A stretch of 64,000 nt of DNA. Origin: Mesaphorura yosii. Taxonomy: Eukaryota > Arthropoda > Collembola > Poduromorpha > Tullbergiidae. The position numbers were made by a program, and so were the translations under genes. The stretch spans positions 95,156-159,155 of the forward strand of contig WIXG01000179.1 in the NCBI GenBank assembly GCA_009869945.1, written 5' to 3'. Below are positions 16,264 to 38,874 of this stretch, one piece after another. The notes under the pieces are model-generated. The model saw only the letters and a program-made list of their open reading frames with translations, did not search any database and was not told where the DNA came from. How positions within the stretch are numbered: the stretch's first letter is position 1; each line of letters begins with the position of its first letter.

Positions 16264-17185
16264 ATGGTCTTCTTGCCGATTGTACCTGCTCGAACTGACA
16301 CTCCGCCAGTTTACGCACACTTGCCTGTCCAGATGGATACAAGCGAGCAGGAAGTGAGCAATGACGACTGGATCCTCGCACCAATTCGCTTAATCAATAC
16401 GTTGTCGATTGGAGGTGAGAAACGCGGCATGAAAAGATCACGCGAGAAGAAATCTGAAACGGAATCTTCTGACTCGGATCAAGTGGACGAAGAAGCGCCC
16501 AATGGGCCCAAGAAGAAGCTGTTTGATGTAACGACGGAGATTAAGCTAAAAGACCTGGGAATGGTGTGATAAGTCTGGGTTTGTTTTGTCAATGTTGCAG
16601 AAACCTTATGCCATGCTGCAAAATGTGCTGACATTTGCAAACGAAGAACTGGAAGGCCCCGGCTGGATTTTACGCCCATTCAGGCTGTTGACAAGAACGC
16701 TAATGGACAAAACTCAAATACCACGCAAACGAGGCTCTTTGATGCTGGAGGCGCCGAAGTCTGCTCAAGAAGTTGTTCCGAAAAAACATCTGTTTGAGGT
16801 AAGTCGGAAGTCGGCGTCGGTCTTTCAAATCATGCCGTACCATACATAATATAAGATATATCACAAATTCTATCTTGACATTTTCTGATCGATTTAGGTT
16901 GAGCTGGACGTAACTGGCTACAAGCCTCAGGGCCTGAATGTAAAAATATCCGCCGGTTCTGTTGTCGTTGAAGGAAAACATGAAGAAATGCAGATGCATG
17001 CAGCAACTCAAGGAAACTCAATCAAACAATTTACAACCACCGTTCAACTTCCATCCAACGTTATCAGAGAACAACTTGAATGTAAATTGACCTCAAATGG
17101 GACCAAGCTGCATATAACTGCCCCACTCAAACCTGTTGAGCCGCCCAAGGAGCCTGACAGAACAATTCCAATCAGTACCTCGTAA
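16264..17185 (+). CDS. Small heat-shock protein A with duplicated N-terminal exon
   Basis: ATP-independent holdase chaperone of the alpha-crystallin/HSP20 family. Exons are 16264-16527 (A), 16601-16798 (B) and 16898-17185 (C), all phase 0. A+B+C gives 249 aa; A+C alone gives 183 aa. Exon C encodes the alpha-crystallin domain (VELDVTGYKPQGLNVKIS, then LTSNGTKLHITAPL) and the C-terminal IPI anchoring motif (RTIPIS). Exons A and B are homologous: both carry a YA-x-L start, WIL-x-P-x-RL, and end in PKK-x-LF(D/E) just before the splice. The ACD arginine position (human CRYAB R120) is threonine here (QFTTTVQLP). A poly(A) signal lies at 17335-17340 and a heat-shock element upstream at 15908. Which exon combination is used cannot be told from sequence. 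Confidence 0.85.
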
Positions 17186-21702: not shown

Positions 21703-22467
21703 TTATTGCCCTTTCTGACGAGCGTCTCCTTCGTTTGTCTCCTTGTTCTCCAATTGCTTCTCTCCTCCAACAGTTGTAATTGGAATGCTTCTAATTGGTG
21801 GTTCAGATGGCGGCTCAATCGCACAAACCGGAGCCGACATAACCAGTTGTCCATCTTCAGTCAATTTGCATTCCAGTTTCTCCTCGATGACGTTCCTCGG
21901 AATGGTGAATGTCCTCTTGAAGTGTGTGTAAACATGCTCCTCAGGACCAGTCGGCTTTCCATCTTTATCCTTCTCAGGAACAGTTGACTGTTCATGCTTG
22001 CCCTCAATCGTGACCAGTCCATTTGAAATTTTGACGTTCAATTCTTCTGGCTTGTAGTCCTTCACGTTCAATTTGACCTGCACGAAGGCACAAACGTTAA
22101 GTTTATACAGTTTCGAGATCGATGGTTGAATCGTATTCGACAGCTCAATTCGATAAACTTGAATAAAATGATTTACCTCAAACACGTTCTTGTCGCTGGC
22201 CAAAACCAACCCTCCAGACTTGGTCGGAGCTCGATCCTCCTCGGAGAAAAGTACCCCAATCATCTCACCTGGTGAAATCCAGTCATCAAGGTGCATGTCG
22301 CCGAATCCAAGCTGCACAGAACGTGGAATCAAAGATCGAACAGGGTTGACTGGATGCAGGTCAACTCCACAACGACTCCAGAGATCCAGTGGATGGAGTC
22401 TTCCACGGCAGCGTTCCCACGGACCAAAGCCCCCAAGGCTGTTTGAGAATGTGATCGGTAGAAACAT
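21703..22467 (-). CDS. Small heat-shock protein B (long type)
   Basis: HSP20-family chaperone, exons 22177-22467 and 21703-22077, 221 aa. The N-terminal region has GGFGPWERCRGRLHPLD and MHLDDWISPGEMIGVLF. The alpha-crystallin domain starts NVFE/VKLNVKDYKPEELNVKIS and includes FKRTFTIP with the conserved arginine, LTEDGQLVMSAP, and the C-terminal motif RSIPIT. The start is the ATG of MFLPITF; the longer frame upstream lacks an ATG. The 99-bp intron (22078-22176) is a multiple of three and open in frame, so retention would add 33 residues. It is closest to sHSP-E (shared FGPW, M-x-LDDW-S-x-x-x-IG, KNVFEVKLNV) and is transcribed head-to-head with sHSP-C. Confidence 0.92.
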   Translation of the reverse strand: MFLPITFSNSLGGFGPWERCRGRLHPLDLWSRCGVDLHPVNPVRSLIPRSVQLGFGDMHLDDWISPGEMIGVLFSEEDRAPTKSGGLVLASDKNVFEVNHFIQVYRIELSNTIQPSISKLYKLNVCAFVQVKLNVKDYKPEELNVKISNGLVTIEGKHEQSTVPEKDKDGKPTGPEEHVYTHFKRTFTIPRNVIEEKLECKLTEDGQLVMSAPVCAIEPPSEPPIRSIPITTVGGEKQLENKETNEGDARQKGQ

Positions 22468-22665
22468 TTTGGCGTCTTGAGGTTTTGCCTCTGTGTGATT
22501 TCGTTGCAAAATCTAAATTTTGCTTTGTTGACACTTGAACTGTCTTGTGGATTGCAAGAATTGCGAAATTAAGACACTTGAGACTTGACCGACTTGTCAA
22601 CTATTCTTCACTTCTAGCTTCGTAACACTGAACTTGACAATAAGGCTCTCTAGTGCAGTGCGTCG

Positions 22666-22673
22666 TATTTATA
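22666..22673 (-). promoter_or_regulatory. TATA box of sHSP-B
   Basis: TATAAATA on the minus strand, about 200 bp upstream of the sHSP-B ATG, in the divergent B/C promoter. Confidence 0.6.
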
Positions 22674-22844
22674 CCGCATACACGAGATGAACTCAAACGT
22701 CGAAGTACGTGCGAGAACGCACGAGAACGGTGAAGAAAATGTGAGCAAATGTGTAATAAGGCACGTACGTATGTATATAAACTCGATACACACTTGCGAC
22801 GTGCCGAGGTTGCCGTGCTGCGGCTGGAGCGCAGCCCAACGAGC

Positions 22845-22854
22845 TTTCGAGAAC
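22845..22854. promoter_or_regulatory. Heat-shock-element-like inverted repeat
   Basis: TTTCGAGAAC is a tail-to-tail TTCnnGAA pair between the divergent TATA boxes of sHSP-B and sHSP-C. GAG at 22841, one unit upstream, is a one-mismatch extension. Confidence 0.5.
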
Positions 22855-22918
22855 TCTGTGGACTCTTCCCGTTGTTTAGACATTCTGTCTCGCACGTTCG
22901 CATACATACTTCAGCATG

Positions 22919-22926
22919 TATAAAAA
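22919..22926 (+). promoter_or_regulatory. TATA box of sHSP-C
   Basis: TATAAAAA on the plus strand, about 190 bp upstream of the sHSP-C ATG. Confidence 0.6.
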
Positions 22927-23112
22927 GAGAAACACCGGCGAATGAATGCATTAGTCTAATTGCGATCATTAAGCAGAATTAACCCTGTAAAACAAGCAAA
23001 CGGGAAACGACACAACCTCCCTAGTATTTTGCATCACTACGCTTCATTTTGATCCGTATCCATCTAACAGTCTCAGTCTTCTGATTACAAAAGCTACTGA
23101 ATTAACTCCACA

Positions 23113-23818
23113 ATGGTTTACCTTTCACTAATTCCTGCTCCGTCGAAATACATTTCTCCTTTCGACATTCTGGAGCATGTGGTCGGCTTGACGAAGACAC
23201 AACTGGAGAACGAGAAACTGGCCAATCGTATTACTCAAGCCTTGCTGAATGGAGGAAGATCTCGCAAACGCTCTTGCCATCATTTGGACGCTGGGAAAGA
23301 TGAGACTTCGGGAAAGAAGAAGCTCTTTCAGGTAAAGACTCAAACGGTGGAGTTCTCATAGTTCTCCAATGCCAATTGTTAATTTCGCCCACTGTTCTGT
23401 ATTGCAGGTTCAACTGAACGTCAATGGCTACAAACCAGAAGAACTAAGCGTCAAAGTCTTGGATGGCCGACTTCTGGTTGAAGGCAGACACGAAGAATCA
23501 GAGAAAGACGGGGATTCGGAGGGATTCGCATTGAGACAATTCAGGAAAGCATTCACATTGCCAGCAAACATCATTGAAGATCGTCTTGAGTGCAAGTTGT
23601 CACCGAATGGCAAATCGCTTGATGTAACAGCTCCACTGAAATGCGTTGAACCTGCGCCGGAGCAGGCCGTCAGAACAATTCCAATCAGCATCGAGCAACC
23701 TGAAGCAGCAGTAAAAGAAGCTCCGACAACGACTGCTATGGAAAATGAGAACACCGGGAAGGACCAAGAGCAGAAGGACAAGGACAACGGGACAAACTCG
23801 GCTGACAGCACAAAGTAA
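23113..23818 (+). CDS. Small heat-shock protein C (short type)
   Basis: HSP20-family chaperone, exons 23113-23331 and 23408-23818, 209 aa. It starts MVYLSLIPAPSKYISPFDIL, and exon 1 ends KKKLFQ. The alpha-crystallin domain starts VQLNVNGYKPEELSVKV and has FALRQFRKAFTLP (the CRYAB R120 position is Lys by simple alignment), LSPNGKSLDVTAP and the RTIPIS C-terminal motif, followed by an acidic and Asn/Thr-rich tail. The intron sits immediately before the first domain strand, as in sHSP-A, B and D. It is closest to sHSP-D (MVYLS-x-IPAP, then ENEK). A poly(A) signal follows at 23914-23919. Confidence 0.93.
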
Positions 23819-23913
23819 GCCTTGATCATTATTCAAGTCGCTCCTTATCATATTATAGTATTATCTATTATGGTGTCATCTTTTTCTCATACATTGTCTC
23901 TGCTGACGTATTT

Positions 23914-23919
23914 AATAAA
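23914..23919 (+). terminator. Poly(A) signal of sHSP-C
   Basis: AATAAA about 95 bp after the sHSP-C stop codon. Confidence 0.6.
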
Positions 23920-24241
23920 GACCTTTTGTTTCAATATTTAATGACCATCTGTGTTGAGTGTCTGTGATGCAGATTAATTTACAAGCAATTTGCTCGGGCC
24001 TTGGGAAGTGAACCGTATTCGGTACACATGCACTGGTTGTTGGGTTAAATACGAAAACCGCAAGTAGGACACTGAAACACAGTAGCAGCCAAATCTTACT
24101 CCGGCTTGCTCGCGTTCCAGCTCGACATAACCCGGAATGTCGAGCATACGTCTAGTCTAGGCGGCTTAGAACCACAGTTTGCAGTTGTACTAGAAGCCAA
24201 CAGGTTGGTTTGGTTCTTGTCTAGTTAGGCACTGGAGTTTC

Positions 24242-24260
24242 CAGCAGCAGCAGCAGCAGC
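24242..24260 (+). repeat. (CAG)n microsatellite
   Basis: A run of six CAG units in presumed promoter or 5' UTR sequence upstream of SGSM. Confidence 0.8.
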
Positions 24261-24636
24261 TGTTCACTCTGTGTGTGTCCAGACGAGCCTTTCTTTTTCT
24301 CCACACGTTACGCCGTCGCAGATCTCTGGCCTGGTTTCTACTCTTCCTCTTACCACTTGAACTTGAAAATATTGGAAACGGAAGGCTTTAACCTTGAAAT
24401 GCAATTTTACATATCACAAAGTGTTCATTAAAGCAATTACCGGGACTGGTAAACAATTACATGGTGAATTGGAAGAAACCAAGCGACGTAGAGTAGAAAT
24501 AGTGAAATTCAAGTATCAGAGTCGGACCAGAGAGGCCCCAGCCCGGTTGCAATGGAGCCAACAATATCCAATACCACAGGAGAAAGTTCCGTAATATATT
24601 GATCTCGCCTATCATCCCACTCCAAAAACAACCATC

Positions 24637-27600
24637 ATGTTCTCCGGGGATGAAGGAAAAGGTAAGGCAGTAGAGGTGAGCAAGTGAGCTCAAAACTGCT
24701 TCTGTACTTAAATGCATGTTGTCGGATTCTCGCTCGGTAGAAAAACTGCACAAGGAGAAGGTGATGAAATGCCTGAAAAAGGAAGTGAAAATGATAATGG
24801 AGGAATCTGTGACCAAGAGAATCATTCACGAGGACAGTGCCTCAATCACGTCGTTGTGTGGTACGTACATTAGAAAATTCCAGCAACTACTAAAGCGATA
24901 AACATCCTAACTATAACATGACTATTGTGCGGTAAATAGCGGCCATCGAGCTATGCTTATCTCATGGCCTCAAACGACGCGCACTTGGCTTATTCAAGAA
25001 CAGTTCCACGACTGCCCTCTTGCACAAGGTTGCCAAGAGCTGTCAGGCGGCAGCCATTGTTGTGGATATGCTCTTGGAGATTGAGAACCGGGATTTGAAC
25101 AAGTAAGAACATAACGAGAACTCGTTCGCTGAATTCTAATTTGGCCTTCCACTTCACTTCAGAGGCAAGTCCTCGTTCGGAAGTGAAGGCAGCACACGAG
25201 GGAGCAGATTCCAGCTTCGGGGCCGAAGTGAGTCGTTTGTGGCCGGTACCAAGTACTTGTGGATTCGCCTTGCATTAATTGAAAAGCAACTTGTGAATAT
25301 TCTGGAGTACATCGTCTCGACGAGCAGGTATAAGACTGCCTTTAGGTCGACTACTCTGGAACCAAACTTAAAGCATAATCGAGCATGGCTACTTGATTCA
25401 TTTCAGCAAGTACTACGAGAGGAACGCCTTAATTTGTGACCCTGATTATGGTGGCTCGATATTAAGTTCGCTGCTTGGTGAGTCTCGAATCCTCTTGACA
25501 AATTGAACGAACCTGCTTGGCCTCGTAAAATTATAGTTTGATTGGCTTTTTAATTTTAGTTGGGCCATGCGCGCTGGAATATTCAAGGCACAGAAACTCG
25601 GAAAATATTTGGAGCGATCCACCTGCCAATGAATTAATTCAGAGACACCGCATTTCATCGGCGCAGTCACAGGCAGATGGGCCCTCACCTTTACGGCCTG
25701 CATTAAGTGTAAGTGTTCTAAATTGAATCCAATTGAAGATCAGCCTGCGATACCTATAATTCTGTAATACGCATTGTGTGACAAAAGTACAAAAGAAGCA
25801 GCGGCTTGGACAGTCGGCACATTTCGAAGGACTACGTGGAGTCTCTTCATCAGACCAATAAGTCAACTCTGCTTTATGGCAAGAATAATGTCATCCTGTA
25901 CCTGGTACGATTTTAACTGCGCATAGCCCAGATAGAATTATCTTGAAAATTTGACCTTTTGACCTTCATGTCCTCCTACTTGCTTGATTTCACAGAAGGG
26001 AACCGAGCATCCCGTCGCGGGTTACCTGAGCCTCCACCAGCAGGGGACTTTACTTAATCTGAAATGGACACCGAATAACTTAATGAATGCATCAGCCACC
26101 GAAACCAATGGAAATGGGACGGACGGAGAACAGAGGTAATCGTGAGATGAGGGACTTGTGTTTGCGGGTAAGTTTGTGAATACTGAGTTGAGTCATTTTG
26201 GTTGGTTTTTCAGCATGTACTGGAATCATGCGTTGAACGTGTACGTCCATGAGGTCGTGTACGTGCACTGCCATCGCGATCAGGAGAGTGACTGGATTGT
26301 TCTGGTCGCCCAAGACGGAGTTCAAAGCTCGCCAATTCATTTTCCACGAGGAGGTCATTTGTTAGCTTTCCTCTCCTGTCTGGAGAATGGCTTACTTCCT
26401 TATGGAATGCTGGATCCACCGCTTTGGTCTCAAAATGGAGAAGGTAAGGCTGTACACTTTAATTTTTATTGCTTCGGTTTAGCATTTGGTTTCGCTTGTC
26501 TGCTTTGGTTAACCATGCAATTATCCAACAGATTGCTTTCCCCTGCTAGATAAGGACTTTCCAAAGCTACGGAAAAAAGAAGTCCACGGGCGAATCAGCG
26601 TCTCTCCAATTGGAAATGGGAATGATCCTCCAAACAATCAGAGCACGACGGACTTTGTTTTCAGGATATCTTACGGGAATTTCGAGAAAATGCATCCTCA
26701 ACAAGGTAGTTCAATCAAATTGGGTCGTATCCTGAATTTCCTGAAGAATTCGTGAATATTCCTTTTGAGCAGAGGAAATTTTCGACAGTCCTATATGGTC
26801 TCGGTCGCCTTTTCCAAAGCACGCTATCCAGCCACAGCCGGTGACGCCGCATTCCACGCCAATCCACTCCGTGTCCACAACTTCGTCCACATCCTCCTCT
26901 CGGAGCCTTGAACAACAGTATATTGTCACAGAATCCGGGTATGTCAACCAGTTTTTGCCAACTCCACGATTACGTTCAGAATTTCACAATGATTATTCTT
27001 TCTTTTCTCATTCAGCGAGCCAATCTATGGAGTTTGCAGAAAAATGAAGCAACAAATTATTTCACGAGCGTTTTACGGATGGCTGGCTCATGTCAGACAT
27101 CTGAAAACCATTCGAACTCATTTGACAGGAATTGTGTTCCCGAATCCACCGCAGCCAGGTAAGGCAAACTTCCTTTCCATGCAAGCTTGAGCCAAACAAC
27201 TCGTTAATATAAACTTCTCCCTTACGCAGAGGGCTCAGAAGGGCTTTCGGAAGCGGTTTGGGACAGGATGAGTAAGTGTGGAAATATTGACATGACCGAA
27301 CTTTGCAGAATTGTGTACCTTGGTGGAATCCAGCATTCTTTGCGGCCTGTGGTTTGGCCGATCCTATTGAGAGTGAGTGGTCCGAAGTTTCTTTAAATTA
27401 ATGTAGCAAAAATGTGGCTTTCAAAGTATTGATTCTTGGCAGGGTGATATGAAGCGGATCTTTAAGCCCTCTGAGTACGAAGATTTAATGTCACAATGGT
27501 TGGAGGTCGAAAAATTAGTCAAAGATCGTGAGAAGGGAAGTTCGGGGTCGGGTCACGCTAATCTAGTCAAGCTGTCGTCTGGAGGCACATTCGAGACGCA

Positions 27601-28836
27601 GCAATTCAGCGCTTTTCCTCAAATTCATGAAAGCAACGATGTACGTGACTTGAAGCCAATTTGCTTTCACGCTAGTTTGTAATTTTCTAATCTTCTTTGT
27701 AGGTTTTCGAAGATTCTGTACTGGTGGATCCGAAAGTGGTAGCCACAGTCCAAGCCAAACTGGATCAAATCAATGGCAGCACACCAACACCACAAACCAC
27801 GTCAGCAGCGTTTTGCGTTAGTGCAACTTACAATCAAGTCCAAGAAGATGCGGTGCCATGTTACGAGACAGGAAAGCCACGTTGCTGCAAGATTCCCGAA
27901 GAAAGCATGCAGCAATCCTGGAATTATTCAAACGAAACTGTGTACTCCAACGAGATCCTCGAGTGCTTCAGCTTGAATTTACATCGCATTGACAAGGACG
28001 TGAAGCGTTGCGACAGATCATACGCGTACTTCACAGAAAAGAACCTGGACAAACTTAGGAATATAATGTGCACGTAAGTTAAAGTACCAGAAAGAACAAC
28101 AATGACCTGTAGGATGAATTTTAATTTGGCTTGGTTGTTCCTGTCTAGATTTGTGTGGGAGCACATGGACTTAGGCTACATTCAGGGCATGTGCGATCTC
28201 TGTGCACCAATTCTGGTCATACTCGATGACGAGATTGCAGTATATGAGTGCTTTCGCTATCTCATGGTGCGAATGTCCTCAAACTTCCCCAGCGGAGGTG
28301 GTACCATGGACGTCCAGTTCACAAACATGAGGTCGCTTCTCCAAGTGCTGGATCACGACCTGTTCACGTTGATCAAACAAAATGGAGACTACAGTCACTT
28401 TTACTTCTGCTACCGGTGGTTTCTCTTGGACTTTAAAAGAGGTACAGCTGAATCCGCATTTGTTGTACTGTTGCAGTTTAAGGAATGCTATTGCAATGCA
28501 CTGGATTTCAGAATTCTGCTACAATGACGTGTTTCTGGTGTGGGAAACGATTTGGGCAGCAAGATTCGTCGCGTCGGCAGATTTTGTGCTGTTTATAGCT
28601 CTCGCCCTCTTGGACTATTACAGAGATATTATTCTTTCCAATTGCATGGATTTTACTGACACGATCAAGTTTTTCAACGGTAAGTCAAATTATACTTGAA
28701 CTTAGGATCAGAGAACCAGCTCATTGATCTTGCGCAATGTTTTTTAGAAATGGCCGAACGACACGACGGAAAAGTCATATTGCAGATGGCCAGGAACCTC
28801 GTCGCGAAACTTCAGTTATTGGTCGAGAACAAGTGA
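24637..28836 (+). CDS. SGSM: Small G-protein signalling modulator, RUN-TBC Rab regulator
   Basis: SGSM proteins bind Rap/Rab GTPases through a RUN domain and stimulate Rab GTP hydrolysis through a TBC domain. Eighteen exons fit (968 aa), starting 24637-24661, 24741-24860, 24940-25102 and ending 28512-28679, 28748-28836. RUN segment: [60 protein letters not shown]. Middle segment: [96 protein letters not shown], the arginine finger in [11 protein letters not shown], the glutamine finger in [38 protein letters not shown]. All close matches to vertebrate SGSM1. The linker before the TBC core is shorter than in vertebrates. It lies between the two sHSP pairs. Confidence 0.95.
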
Positions 28837-29111
28837 ATTTCTTGTCAGTATGTGATGCAGTATATGCCAATTTTAAGAAACGGACTACCTGAAATAAATC
28901 GAATCTATATTGATGTTGTAAATTACAAGAACATAAAAATTTCTTTATTAAACCACTCAACCAAACTCATGCGTTCAATTTACATTCTGATTCTGTTTAG
29001 TGTTACAACTGTGCGAAAAAGAAATCAATTAGTTGATAAAATGTTGCTTGAACTATCTACAAGATTTACAAGGAGGGCGGCTGAGCGAATATTGCTTGAA
29101 GTCCCAAAGAT

Positions 29112-29770
29112 TTAATTATTTCCGCTGGTTGCACCGTTCTCGATGGGTGTATCGTTTTCAGTGGTTGAAGCAACTGTAGCTTCGGTGGCGCCATTGCCAT
29201 TGTACTCCTGTGTGAGTTTTGGAGCAGCGGCTTCGAACTGGATTGGAATTGTTCTTGCCTTTTGTTCCAATGGTGGTTCAACTTTCAGTGGGGCAGTGAC
29301 CAGCAACTTCTTTCCATCGGCTGTCAGTTTGCATTGGAGTCCCTCCTCGATGATGTTCTCCGGCAGGGCAATTTTCCTCTTGAATTGTCTCAGCAGATAG
29401 TCCTCAGAATTTTCGTCGCTGTGTTTGACCTCACACTTCCCCTCGACGTGTACGTGTCCTTCGGCGACTTTTACGTTCAGATCCTGAGGTTGGTAGCCGC
29501 TGACATCCAATTCAAACTGTAACAGCAAAGTAAAAAGCAGATTAGCACCCACCAATTTTAAGAATGAGAGAAAGCACGTTGATAGAATGGTGCTTCAATT
29601 AATCCTACCTGAAATTGCTTGGCTGGTGCTTGTCTGCCAAAGGCGTCTGTGACCAGCTTGATCCACTTCTCATTCTCGGGACGCGTGTCCGACAGATTGA
29701 TAACTTCCTCCAGAACACCAAATGGAGTGAGGAAGTTGCGTGGTGCAGGAATCACTGACAAGTACACCAT
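29112..29770 (-). CDS. Small heat-shock protein D (short type)
   Basis: HSP20-family chaperone, exons 29609-29770 and 29112-29516, 188 aa. It starts MVYLSVIPAPRNFLTPFGVL; exon 1 ends KQFQ. The alpha-crystallin domain starts FELDVSGYQPQDLNVKVAEG and includes LRQFKRKIALP with the conserved arginine, LTADGKKLLVTAP and RTIPIQ, then an Ala/Thr/Asn-rich tail. The N terminus and intron position match sHSP-C. It is convergent with SGSM (275 bp between stop codons) and divergent from sHSP-E. Confidence 0.93.
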
Positions 29771-29979
29771 GACGCTTGCTTTACGGTTAATGTAGTAATG
29801 GAAATTCAATTTCAAAGAGAAAAGGAACGAGTTTCAATAATGCTTTAGTTGCTATTAATTCACAGATTACAGTAGAGCAGAGAATGAAATTGAGATTTGT
29901 AAGTCGAGTTGACTAACTCTTGTTCGTTAGCTTGAGACTTCGCAGTTCTGTACTGAAGAGATACTGGGAAGCCGTCGCG

Positions 29980-29987
29980 TTTTTATA
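29980..29987 (-). promoter_or_regulatory. TATA box of sHSP-D
   Basis: TATAAAAA on the minus strand, about 210 bp upstream of the sHSP-D ATG, followed upstream by the heat-shock element at 30047. Confidence 0.6.
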
Positions 29988-30046
29988 GTGAGAAGAGCAG
30001 CAAGCCGCCGTGAGACGGAACGAGACAGAGGCTTCACACCAGTTGT

Positions 30047-30066
30047 AGAAAATTCTACACGGTTCC
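30047..30066. promoter_or_regulatory. Heat-shock element, gapped
   Basis: AGAAAATTCT gives GAA and TTC 5 bp apart, and a second TTC follows 10 bp later (30063), in the same 5-bp register. This matches a gapped HSF site, about 60 bp upstream of the sHSP-D TATA box. Confidence 0.65.
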
Positions 30067-30738
30067 CGACCAAGTCTCAACCACTTCAATAAAGTTTACT
30101 GTAAGCGCTTTGCTTGAGTGTTTCATACCATAGAAAAATCTCGTATTTCCCGTCTATATGGCTGAACGCTCTGGATTTTTCGTACGAACCTCGTGTCAAT
30201 CATCGCATATCGGAAGTATTGTTGAGTTCAGACAATAGGATTCTTAAAGCAATTACAATTAAGAATGTTTAAGAATAATGCAATTTATTTAAGCTTTTTT
30301 AACAAATAGAAAATAATTTCTGCAATTTATGCTGCTTTTCGCAATTTACATCGGAGCTGATTGATTCTTTAAAATCGTTCATGTTCACACCGCTCACCCA
30401 TATTACAGTTTACCTGCATCATGTTTCCTTGTGCTAAACGAGCTCGAATTATATCAACTTATTTTACACCCATACCCATAATTCATTGAAAGCCATCATT
30501 TCAAGAATTTCAACAATTAAAAATCAATCACTTCATTTTTCATCGACGTTCAAAATCAAGCTGATGACATGACGGTTAGAACATCCGCTTGACAAAAGTT
30601 ATGGAAAGTCCGGCACGAAAAATCTAAAACGATTTGAACCAAATTCATGTATAATGACCATTACAAAACCATGCAATTGTATGACTCAACACTGCATTGA
30701 ATGGTTTGCGAATAGTGCACTGAATATACGTGTGCAAT

Positions 30739-30748
30739 ATTCGCGAAG
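30739..30748. promoter_or_regulatory. Heat-shock-element-like inverted repeat
   Basis: ATTCGCGAAG contains TTCnnGAA with the same core (TTCGCGAA) as the element upstream of sHSP-A. It is on the sHSP-E side of the divergent D/E promoter. Confidence 0.6.
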
Positions 30749-30808
30749 AGTCGCGTGCCCATGCTGCAAGTACTGCAAGACGAGCTTAGGCTTTTGTAGT
30801 AAACGTTG

Positions 30809-30840
30809 GAAGGAATGTACCAGAAAAGTTGAGACTCTTC
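30809..30840 (+). promoter_or_regulatory. Clustered GAA/TTC heat-shock units
   Basis: GAA at 30813 and 30823 and TTC at 30838 share a 5-bp register. With the TTCGCGAA site about 70 bp upstream this suggests a multi-site HSF array in front of the sHSP-E TATA box. Confidence 0.45.
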
Positions 30841-30964
30841 TACCACTGCAAAAATCGTGCAGTAACAACGCTTTAAAGCTGCCCAGTACGTTCTACGCTA
30901 TTCTCGTGGTTTCTGTCATCTGCTACACAATTCCTGTAGAATCGTTTTGCTCTATCAGTCTACG

Positions 30965-30971
30965 TATAAAA
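30965..30971 (+). promoter_or_regulatory. TATA box of sHSP-E
   Basis: TATAAAA about 185 bp upstream of the sHSP-E ATG. Confidence 0.6.
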
Positions 30972-31151
30972 CCGGCTGCCTGCTCGGTGCTGTTCATCAT
31001 TCAACTCTTCAACTGCAAACCAGTCAAGCAAAGCAAACACAAGTCTCAAGTCTCCAACTTTATACTTCACGAACGCAATTAGCAAAGTGTCTCACCGAAA
31101 AGTAACTGCTTCTTAAAGTTTTCAATTTTTCAACACAATCAACGCTCAACA

Positions 31152-32021
31152 ATGGAAGTCTACATCCCGACGTCTCCAGCTTACGCTTTTGAGAGAGGAT
31201 TTGGTCCGTGGAGTCGCCGAGGTCACCACTTCGGCGGTGTCACAACGCCAATAGATTTCTTCGGACATCGTCATCGTGGCCATAGTGGGTTTGACCATCC
31301 GTTCAGTCGTGTTGGACTGGATCATCACTCATTTGCTCGTCGTGGTGGATGCGGTGGACGCCGAGGTGGCCTGCGATCAATGATGCCAGAACGCGTCCGC
31401 ATTGAATTTGACAACATGGACTTGGACGACTGGGTTTCGCCTGCGGACATCATCGGAGCAATTTTTGCAAGGCCAGGAGAACCACAACAGAAGGACTCAA
31501 CTTCAGCAGCATCGGCAAACGTAAGTGCGACAGCAGCAGTCCCTTCAACTTCAACTGCAGTCCCAAACAGCAACAAGAACGTTTTCGAAGTCAAGCTGAA
31601 CGTGACTGACTACAATCCAGAGACGCTCAAAGTGACTGTCGCAAATGGCTTCATCACAGTCGAAGCCAACCACGAGGAAACGAAAACCGAGAAAGACGAG
31701 CAAGACAATGAAGTCATCAGCGAGGAATTCGTGTCAATGCACTTCAAGCGCAGCTTCGCTATCCCACCGAATGCAATTGAGGACAAGCTGGAGTGCAAAA
31801 TGACGGCTGATGGACATCTGATTTTGTCTGCGCCATTGAAATGCATTGAACCGGCACCAAAACAACCTGCAGTCAGATCAATTCCAATTAACGTAGCACC
31901 ACCAGCAGCAGCTGTAGAGAATCAACCGGCAATTACAACTCCAGAAGTAAACAACACCGCTGTGGAGCTTGAATCAGCGTCGAAGGAGTCGGAGGCCGCC
32001 CCAAACGATAAAACCAACTAA
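31152..32021 (+). CDS. Small heat-shock protein E (long type, intronless)
   Basis: HSP20-family chaperone of 289 aa in one exon. The N terminus has FERGFGPWSRRGHH, a His/Gly/Arg-rich stretch (residues about 30-75), and MDLDDWVSPADIIGAIF; a Ser/Ala/Thr linker leads into NKNVFEVKLNVTDYNPETLK. The domain has MHFKRSFAIP with the conserved arginine and MTADGHLILSAPL, and the C-terminal motif is RSIPIN. It is the paralogue of sHSP-B but lacks the intron that B has between NVFE and VKLNV. Two nearby poly(A) signals include 32167-32172. Confidence 0.94.
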   Translation: MEVYIPTSPAYAFERGFGPWSRRGHHFGGVTTPIDFFGHRHRGHSGFDHPFSRVGLDHHSFARRGGCGGRRGGLRSMMPERVRIEFDNMDLDDWVSPADIIGAIFARPGEPQQKDSTSAASANVSATAAVPSTSTAVPNSNKNVFEVKLNVTDYNPETLKVTVANGFITVEANHEETKTEKDEQDNEVISEEFVSMHFKRSFAIPPNAIEDKLECKMTADGHLILSAPLKCIEPAPKQPAVRSIPINVAPPAAAVENQPAITTPEVNNTAVELESASKESEAAPNDKTN

Positions 32022-37547: not shown

Positions 37548-38874
37548 ATGAGCCTGTTGTGGCGTCTGCTGGTAATGGCGTTCGGTTTGGCATTACATTT
37601 GATTCAATGCCAAACAGGTAAGCCACACTGATTCACAAGTACACGTTTTAATGTAATCAACAAATTCATCTAAAAGAAACCTGCAGCTCATATTAAGGTG
37701 GACCCAAGCAGTGTCACTGTGTCTGGGTTTTCCTCGGGTGGTGCAATGGCCATGCAGTTCCATCTAGCTCATTCTAACATTGTCCATGGAGTAGGAATTG
37801 TTGGTGGTTGTAAGAGCGAATTATGCCTTCATACGCGTGAATCCTCGTGGCTCTGATTTTAATTGCGTTTTCCTTGAAATAAGTGCCTTACGGCTGCGGT
37901 TACTTCTCAAACTCGTCACTCTGTCACCAAACTTCCGACCAGGACTATGTTGATTTCATTAAGACACACGCGTGGCTCGGAAACATTGACCCTGTCACGA
38001 ATATTGTGCAGGACAATGCCTTTGTATTTCACGGGGCCATGGATACTGGAGTCAATCCAGGTTTCACATCCTCCAAGTAGCCTGTCTATTGACCATTTGC
38101 ACTTATTATCCTCTTGTCTTGCATATTCCGCAGCGTTGGGCGCGAAAATTGCAAATATTTACAGCAAGCTTGAAGCAATGGTGACCACTGAGTTTACTCT
38201 GCAGGCCGCACATGGATTTGTAAGTTCACAAACTTAAATTCTCAGACTTCCACGCACAAAGGAGACTGACTGTCTAATGTCAAATTAGCCGACAGAATCC
38301 TACGGTACCCCGTGCGACCAGGATTCCGCTTTAACTGGATACTTGAGCAATTGCAGCTACTTCGGTGCCTTTGAGGTACTCAACACTCTTTATGATGGAG
38401 ACCTCCAACGACCTTCGTCAGGAGACGTGTGGAGAGGAACACTAACTGAATTTGGTCAAACTCTGTTCATTCCTCCTGCCTATGACTCTCCAGCCTCAAT
38501 TAGTCTAGACTCTGTGGGGTTCATGTACATCCCATCTCAGTGCGAACCTGGAGTGGTTTGCCGACTACACGTCGCACTGCACGGGTGCCTTCAAAGTCGA
38601 GGGCTAATCAACGACCTGTTTGTTAGAAATGCGGGTTATCTCGAGGTTGGTGAGGCGAATAATATCATCATCATCTTCCCACAAGCTGCGCCAACCACAG
38701 CCACTCCAAACGGTTGCTGGAATTGGTGGGGCTACCTGGAAGGATCGGACTACCGTAAGTAGGAATGAATCACTAAAATAATTGCACCAATTTTATTTCT
38801 TCTCGTTATTTCCAGTGACCAACAAGGCTCCGCAAATTCAAACTCTGTACAACATCGTTAATGCCTTTTTGTGA
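37548..38874 (+). CDS. Secreted PHB-depolymerase-like esterase
   Basis: Alpha/beta-hydrolase esterase related to extracellular poly(3-hydroxybutyrate) depolymerases. Exons 37548-37617, 37687-37809, 37884-38060, 38134-38219, 38289-38754 and 38816-38874 give 326 aa. A signal peptide is evident (LLVMAFGLALHLIQC). The lipase box is SGFSSGGAMAM (Ser39 as nucleophile), the likely acid is Asp118 in FHGAMDTG and the base His150 in AAHGFPT. The oxyanion-hole motif LHVALHGCLQ and CWNWWGYLEGSDY come last, after the triad, so the fold has the circularly permuted type-2 order known from fungal PhaZ. Even-spaced cysteines suggest disulfides. It ends 24 bp from the convergent gene at 38899. Bacterial or fungal ancestry is possible but the introns show it is a nuclear animal gene. 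Confidence 0.9.

Follow-up and report, generated by a model that had tools for sequence, protein, structure and literature searches.

A probable old mirror copy of a divergent small heat-shock protein gene pair around an SGSM-type gene in Mesaphorura yosii

How does a genome come to carry two divergent pairs of small heat-shock protein (sHSP) genes, laid out as mirror images on either side of an apparently unrelated gene? We considered this question for a window of 64,000 nt, meaning the whole stretch of DNA that was analysed (contig WIXG01000179.1), from the collembolan Mesaphorura yosii, whose draft assembly comprises 93.0 Mb in 1127 contigs. Along the window the genes run B(-) C(+) SGSM(+) D(-) E(+), as a first-pass annotation made from the sequence had read them, and our gene models, including the spliced SGSM, have unbroken reading frames and bear out both the order and its coordinates. 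A fifth sHSP gene, A, absent from that annotation, belongs to the same clade as B to E. We propose that the five genes probably form a local family derived from old local duplication, in which an ancestral head-to-head pair was copied once in inverted orientation. In window positions, the genes, their introns and the regions between the paired genes are:

16264-17185, + strand: sHSP gene A, exons 16264-16527, 16601-16798 and 16898-17185; PF00011 53.4 bits
22467-21703, - strand: coding sequence of sHSP gene B, long type, 2 exons, 221 aa; PF00011 56.5 bits
22078-22176, - strand: intron of gene B, 99 nt, GT-AG, immediately before the alpha-crystallin domain
22468-23112, no strand: B/C divergent intergenic region, 645 bp
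23113-23818, + strand: sHSP gene C, short type, 2 exons, 209 aa; PF00011 57.5 bits
23332-23407, + strand: intron of gene C, 76 nt
24637-28836, + strand: SGSM-type Rab-GAP gene, 18 exons spliced by hand, single terminal stop, 974 aa
29770-29112, - strand: sHSP gene D, short type, 2 exons, 188 aa; PF00011 52.9 bits
29517-29608, - strand: intron of gene D, 92 nt
29771-31151, no strand: D/E divergent intergenic region, 1381 bp
31152-32021, + strand: sHSP gene E, long type, 1 exon, 289 aa; PF00011 55.7 bits

All five proteins contain an alpha-crystallin domain, scoring 52.9-57.5 bits against the PF00011 (HSP20) cut-off of 20.8 bits, and the gene C protein matches alpha-B crystallin 2klr at 1.6e-12. 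Small heat-shock proteins carry a C-terminal I-x-I motif, and R[TS]IPI is present in each of the five translations; domain and motif together are those of classical holdase chaperones. When the whole genome was searched with the Pfam HSP20 model, at least 22 exon-level matches were found on 10 contigs; five of the 22 fall on the contig of the window, and all five, A to E, lie inside it. Protein searches with E and C gave no place in the genome as close as the genes of their own cluster.

We then asked how the five genes are related. The first tree was built from 22 alpha-crystallin domain rows of the source genome, and a 12-row version omits ten fast-evolving or odd rows (C517b, C157b, C56, four of C164 and three of C1069). 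For the full-length trees, A was used without the second copy of its first exon, columns less than 50% filled were dropped, and no more than a single outgroup, the gene C517a, was included. Relative to the other sHSPs of the genome, A to E form one local clade (98/96 in the 12-row tree, 94/91 in the 22-row tree). B and E, which the first-pass annotation had expected to be sisters, are so in every tree that we built: the pair is recovered at 99/97 in both domain trees and at 86/89 at full length with the outgroup, where A, C and D group together at 86/92, and the five-gene full-length tree splits B and E from A, C and D at 100/99. The groupings that would contradict a mirror copy, B+C and D+E, did not occur, and both are rejected by the approximately unbiased (AU) test (p 0.029 and 0.043, respectively, for the domain alone; 1.4e-5 and 2.7e-4 at full length).

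The portion of each protein encoded by the first exon gives the same division. B and E share FGPW, M-x-LDDW-x-S and KNVFEVKLNV in their translations, and C and D share MVYLS-x-IPAP and ENEK, just as had been described from the sequence; the likeness of the first exons is well beyond chance (z 20.1 for B-E and 24.9 for C-D, with 0/500 shuffles in each case), while B-C, B-D, C-E and D-E stand at background level (500 shuffles). Core-domain identity is 57% for B-E and 54% for C-D. The first exon of gene A is closest to that of D (z 6.2, 0/500 shuffles), and A appears to be an additional relative that stands closer to the short-type genes than to the long. We also compared A to E with five outgroup first exons (25 comparisons). 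The sole comparison to reach 0/500 is that of C517a with E (z 6.7); C517a scores z 2.3 against B (19/500) and is at background against C and D. This pattern suggests, without proving it, that the long-type first exon is the older form and that the short-type first exon may be a derived character uniting A, C and D.

Gene A itself has two similar tandem first exons (16264-16527 and 16601-16798; protein z 7.7, 0/500 shuffles), whose likeness is not visible at the DNA level. Both consist of whole codon numbers, and the frame is open with or without the second, so that they could possibly supply alternative N-termini.

The intron directly before the domain had been offered as a further link between C and D. 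It is indeed the same in both, but A and B carry it as well, at the same place and phase, and the outgroup C517a has a donor and an acceptor at that place, so the shared intron is not diagnostic of a C+D pairing. E is the sole intronless member of the five, with KNVFEVKLNV running continuously through the site. The intron is ancestral to the set and was lost in E. This loss resembles removal of an intron in place rather than retrocopying, because the intron is missing exactly and E has kept a TATA box 187 nt upstream.

The divergence of the genes indicates that the arrangement is not recent. Synonymous change is close to saturation or past it: the proportion of synonymous differences (pS) is 0.66-0.83 over the ten pairs of A-E, and the synonymous divergence (dS) is undefined in six of the ten, B-E and C-D included, and lies at 1.59-3.21 for the rest. 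No two of the five coding sequences share an exact match of more than 18 nt, and between the two arms, each comprising one gene pair, the longest inverted match runs to 15 nt and the longest direct match to 11 nt. In coding sequence, B and E match in inverted orientation over 154 nt (69%) and C and D over 159 nt (68%); direct matches between genes of unlike type are at least as strong, with 76 nt at 76% for B-D and 87 nt at 72% for C-E. The longest inverted repeats in the region from 15 to 33 kb are 98 nt at 70%, between B and C, and 95 nt at 73%, between B and E. When the non-coding parts of the arms were compared, seven matches turned up, each 11-17 nt long. The best of them (expectation value 0.008) is inverted and links the 3' flank of B to that of E by 14 identical nucleotides, the other six stand at 0.056 or more, and no extended non-coding homology was found between the arms. 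Exact 12-mers common to the arms number eight inverted and none direct, whereas 100 shuffles averaged 0.68 and never exceeded 6; this slight inverted excess fits an old mirror copy. In other words, the mirror copy appears to be old, and the DNA comparison of the arms shows no visible palindrome. The earlier suggestion that palindromic arms may undergo gene conversion or invert the gene between them is therefore not supported: the divergence is high, synonymous change is at or close to saturation, exact matches between the arms are short (15 nt at most), and extended non-coding homology is lacking.

The same divergence bears on whether the mirror layout could be an assembly artefact made of duplicated or flipped haplotype copies. 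A draft assembly in 1127 contigs makes this worth asking, but we regard it as very improbable, because the core domains differ at 43% (B-E) and 46% (C-D) of sites, with dS saturated, and because the B-C block, used as a query against the genome, returned one place. In addition, frames and splice sites are intact in all five sHSPs and in SGSM.

We next considered the two intergenic regions, in which the following promoter-like signals were found:

22673, - strand: TATAAA of B, 206 nt from the B ATG
22841, no strand: heat-shock element (HSE)-like site in the B/C region, three units with one mismatch
22919, + strand: TATAAA of C, 194 nt from the C ATG
29771-31151, no strand: HSE-like sites of the D/E region, five three-unit one-mismatch matches, two of them overlapping
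29987, - strand: TATAAA of D, 217 nt from the D ATG
30965, + strand: TATAAA of E, 187 nt from the E ATG
31064, - strand: additional TATAAA in the D/E region

Each of the four paired genes thus has a TATAAA 187-217 nt before its ATG, compared with 1.75% of random positions that have one in about that band, the band having been picked after the sites were seen. TATA[AT]A is absent from the 400 nt upstream of gene A. Each of the four TATA boxes has an HSE-like site in the 250 bp upstream of it, a single site counting for both B and C, as against 14% of random 250-bp windows. In nematode hsp-16 modules, heat-shock promoter elements lie between the paired genes; here the TATA boxes are alike in place, whereas the HSE-like sites are found only with a mismatch. 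Induction of each pair by stress through heat-shock factor (HSF) is plausible but unproven on the strength of these motifs.

Taken together, what the locus displays directly (the gene models, the common clade, the sisterhood of B and E, the first-exon homology of C and D, the matching placement of the TATA boxes and the great age) can be brought into a single history, and we prefer a mirror copy of a head-to-head pair because it takes the fewest steps. In the ancestral pair, a long-type gene and a short-type gene would have been transcribed away from each other, out of the intergenic region between them. A single inverted duplication would have copied both genes together, not one at a time, and the two copies would now flank the unrelated SGSM-type Rab-GAP gene. 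Each pair may be co-induced by stress through HSF, and the long and short proteins might be expressed together and work as holdase chaperones, possibly in mixed oligomers. The simplest history remains the one that the first-pass annotation gave, inverted copying of a head-to-head pair; the gene order and the B+E pairing fit it, and copying as a block is likely rather than certain.

Several observations weigh against this history. The two intergenic regions share just one 15-nt stretch (93%, expectation value 0.15), so the case for block copying has to be made from gene order and protein trees, and neither region contains a perfect three-unit HSE, of which the whole window has four, one of them upstream of A. 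The first exon of A, besides its likeness to D, is weakly like those of B (z 3.8, 3/500) and C (z 3.3, 5/500), and for this reason the division into long and short types is not perfectly clean. The trees also place A in competition with C for the position beside D. The 22-row domain tree pairs A with D (82/71), and full-length bootstraps with the outgroup favour A+D (502 of 1000) over C+D (293) and A+C (196); without the outgroup the corresponding figures are 365, 389 and 246. In the 12-row domain bootstraps, C+D appears in 12 of 1000 replicates and B, C and E group together in 736. Finally, the tree program warned of long branches, that of A above all. The C+D sister pair that had been expected thus stands in part: the first exons are homologous, and the AU test leaves the grouping unrejected (p 0.29 for the domain, 0.535 at full length), but exclusivity with respect to A does not emerge, and because A competes, C+D as exclusive sisters is neither established nor rejected.

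Some of these points would be expected if the mirror layout had been assembled gene by gene, through single-gene duplications and small inversions with no pair ever copied as a block. Gene A shows that single members of the family also spread locally, the branching order among C, D and A is unsettled, and the intergenic regions, without extended common sequence, are of unlike length (645 and 1381 bp). Such a route, however, takes more events, and it must arrive twice at the identical head-to-head arrangement of a long and a short gene, with the same TATA-to-ATG layout in both pairs. We consider it less likely than a single copying of the pair, yet a serious competitor.

The domain bootstraps raise a different alternative, in which C is nearer to B and E than to D, the first exon common to C and D is an old retained feature, and the two pairs are not copies of one pair. 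The domain alone speaks for it, with B, C and E together in those 736 replicates and A, C and D together in 64. At full length with the outgroup the order is reversed (A, C and D in 857 of 1000, B, C and E in 57), although the AU test gives p 0.0975 for B, C and E, which is not a firm rejection, and the first exon of the outgroup C517a resembles the long type of E rather than the short type. We therefore hold this alternative to be improbable and retain the mirror copy of an ancestral pair as the preferred account.

Comparable arrangements are known in other animals. The mammalian genes CRYAB and HSPB2, which encode sHSPs of two types, stand head to head across a conserved intergenic region and, to our knowledge, form a single pair without an inverted second copy. 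In local extent, the eight genes in 12 kb of the Drosophila 67B sHSP cluster likewise constitute a local family, but mirrored long and short pairs are not described in the excerpt of that source (PMC6274884). The excerpt of PMC9887055 attributes to duplication the three adjacent sHSP genes HSP17, HSP19 and HSP20 of Hypsibius exemplaris, which are more than 90% identical in coding sequence; this cluster resembles ours in adjacency, in its presumed origin by duplication and in belonging to a small animal, and no head-to-head mirror layout is described there. The closest likeness in layout among these is to the C. elegans hsp16-1/hsp16-48 genes, a head-to-head module with an inverted repeat copy 416 bp away (Russnak and Candido 1985, via the excerpt of PMC3966223), and with this published precedent the copying route is a real one. 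According to the same excerpt, the 1.9-kb nematode modules are identical, and gene conversion is favoured as the cause. Here, in contrast, the core domains are 54-57% identical, the pairs are separated by 5.3 kb, measured between the stops of C and D, in which SGSM lies, and, with dS undefined for B-E and C-D, there is no sign of recent conversion. Among the titles and abstract openings listed, which cover open-licence literature only, none names such a locus, and this is not proof that it is unpublished.

The gene between the pairs is what the first-pass annotation had called it. The SGSM label holds because an intact gene encodes, in order, RUN (81.1 bits), Rab-binding (146.8 bits) and TBC (100.1 bits) domains, all above the Pfam cut-offs. 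The catalytic motifs of TBC domains are I-x-x-D-x-x-R and Y-x-Q, and the spliced translation, read by eye, has the matching IDKDVKR and YIQ. SGSM would appear to be a bystander unrelated to the sHSP genes. Elsewhere in the window, an alpha/beta-hydrolase-like frame with GFSSGGAMA at 37674-37856 scores 16.6 bits for Abhydrolase_2, below the cut-off of 23, and by eye looks like a polyhydroxybutyrate (PHB)-depolymerase-type esterase. Comparison of the window with Rfam gave no match at gathering scores, and no tRNA was found in it.

Other sHSP loci of the genome are of different kinds. C175:102000-108500 and C157:102500-109000 each have two same-strand alpha-crystallin domains in a row, with C175a and C157a as sisters (98/95 in the 22-row tree). 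They look like two-domain sHSP genes, a layout presumably reminiscent of tapeworm Tsp36; the match of a two-domain candidate to PDB 2bol is only 2.9e-5. At C164:3000-10500 and at C1069:1-7000, long open frames encode several consecutive alpha-crystallin domains, joined on C164 by Q-rich linkers, and these could possibly be multi-domain sHSP proteins. On contig C506 a single open frame encodes a fatty-acid-binding protein (8.6e-31 for its closest PDB entry), and about 1.1 kb from it, on the same strand, lies a second match to the lipocalin family. The genome has seven lipocalin-family matches, and the one compared is an ordinary fatty-acid-binding protein.

The locus is a tidy case of ordinary local gene duplication, in an arrangement of an already known kind. 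It represents an old, diverged example of a layout otherwise known to us from the identical copies of C. elegans, and it carries a practical warning, in that intron sharing and short motifs alone are no proof of sister pairs in such clusters. More speculatively, and in our view rather doubtfully, the mirrored pair might have arisen independently of nematode hsp-16 and have been retained over a long period, with the layout selected for joint induction of the two unlike chaperones, in fixed proportion from a bidirectional promoter, so that they form mixed oligomers; if that were true, selection would preserve the layout itself and not gene number alone. The old, diverged copies let one ask whether paired long and short sHSPs are kept together by co-regulation or merely by descent.

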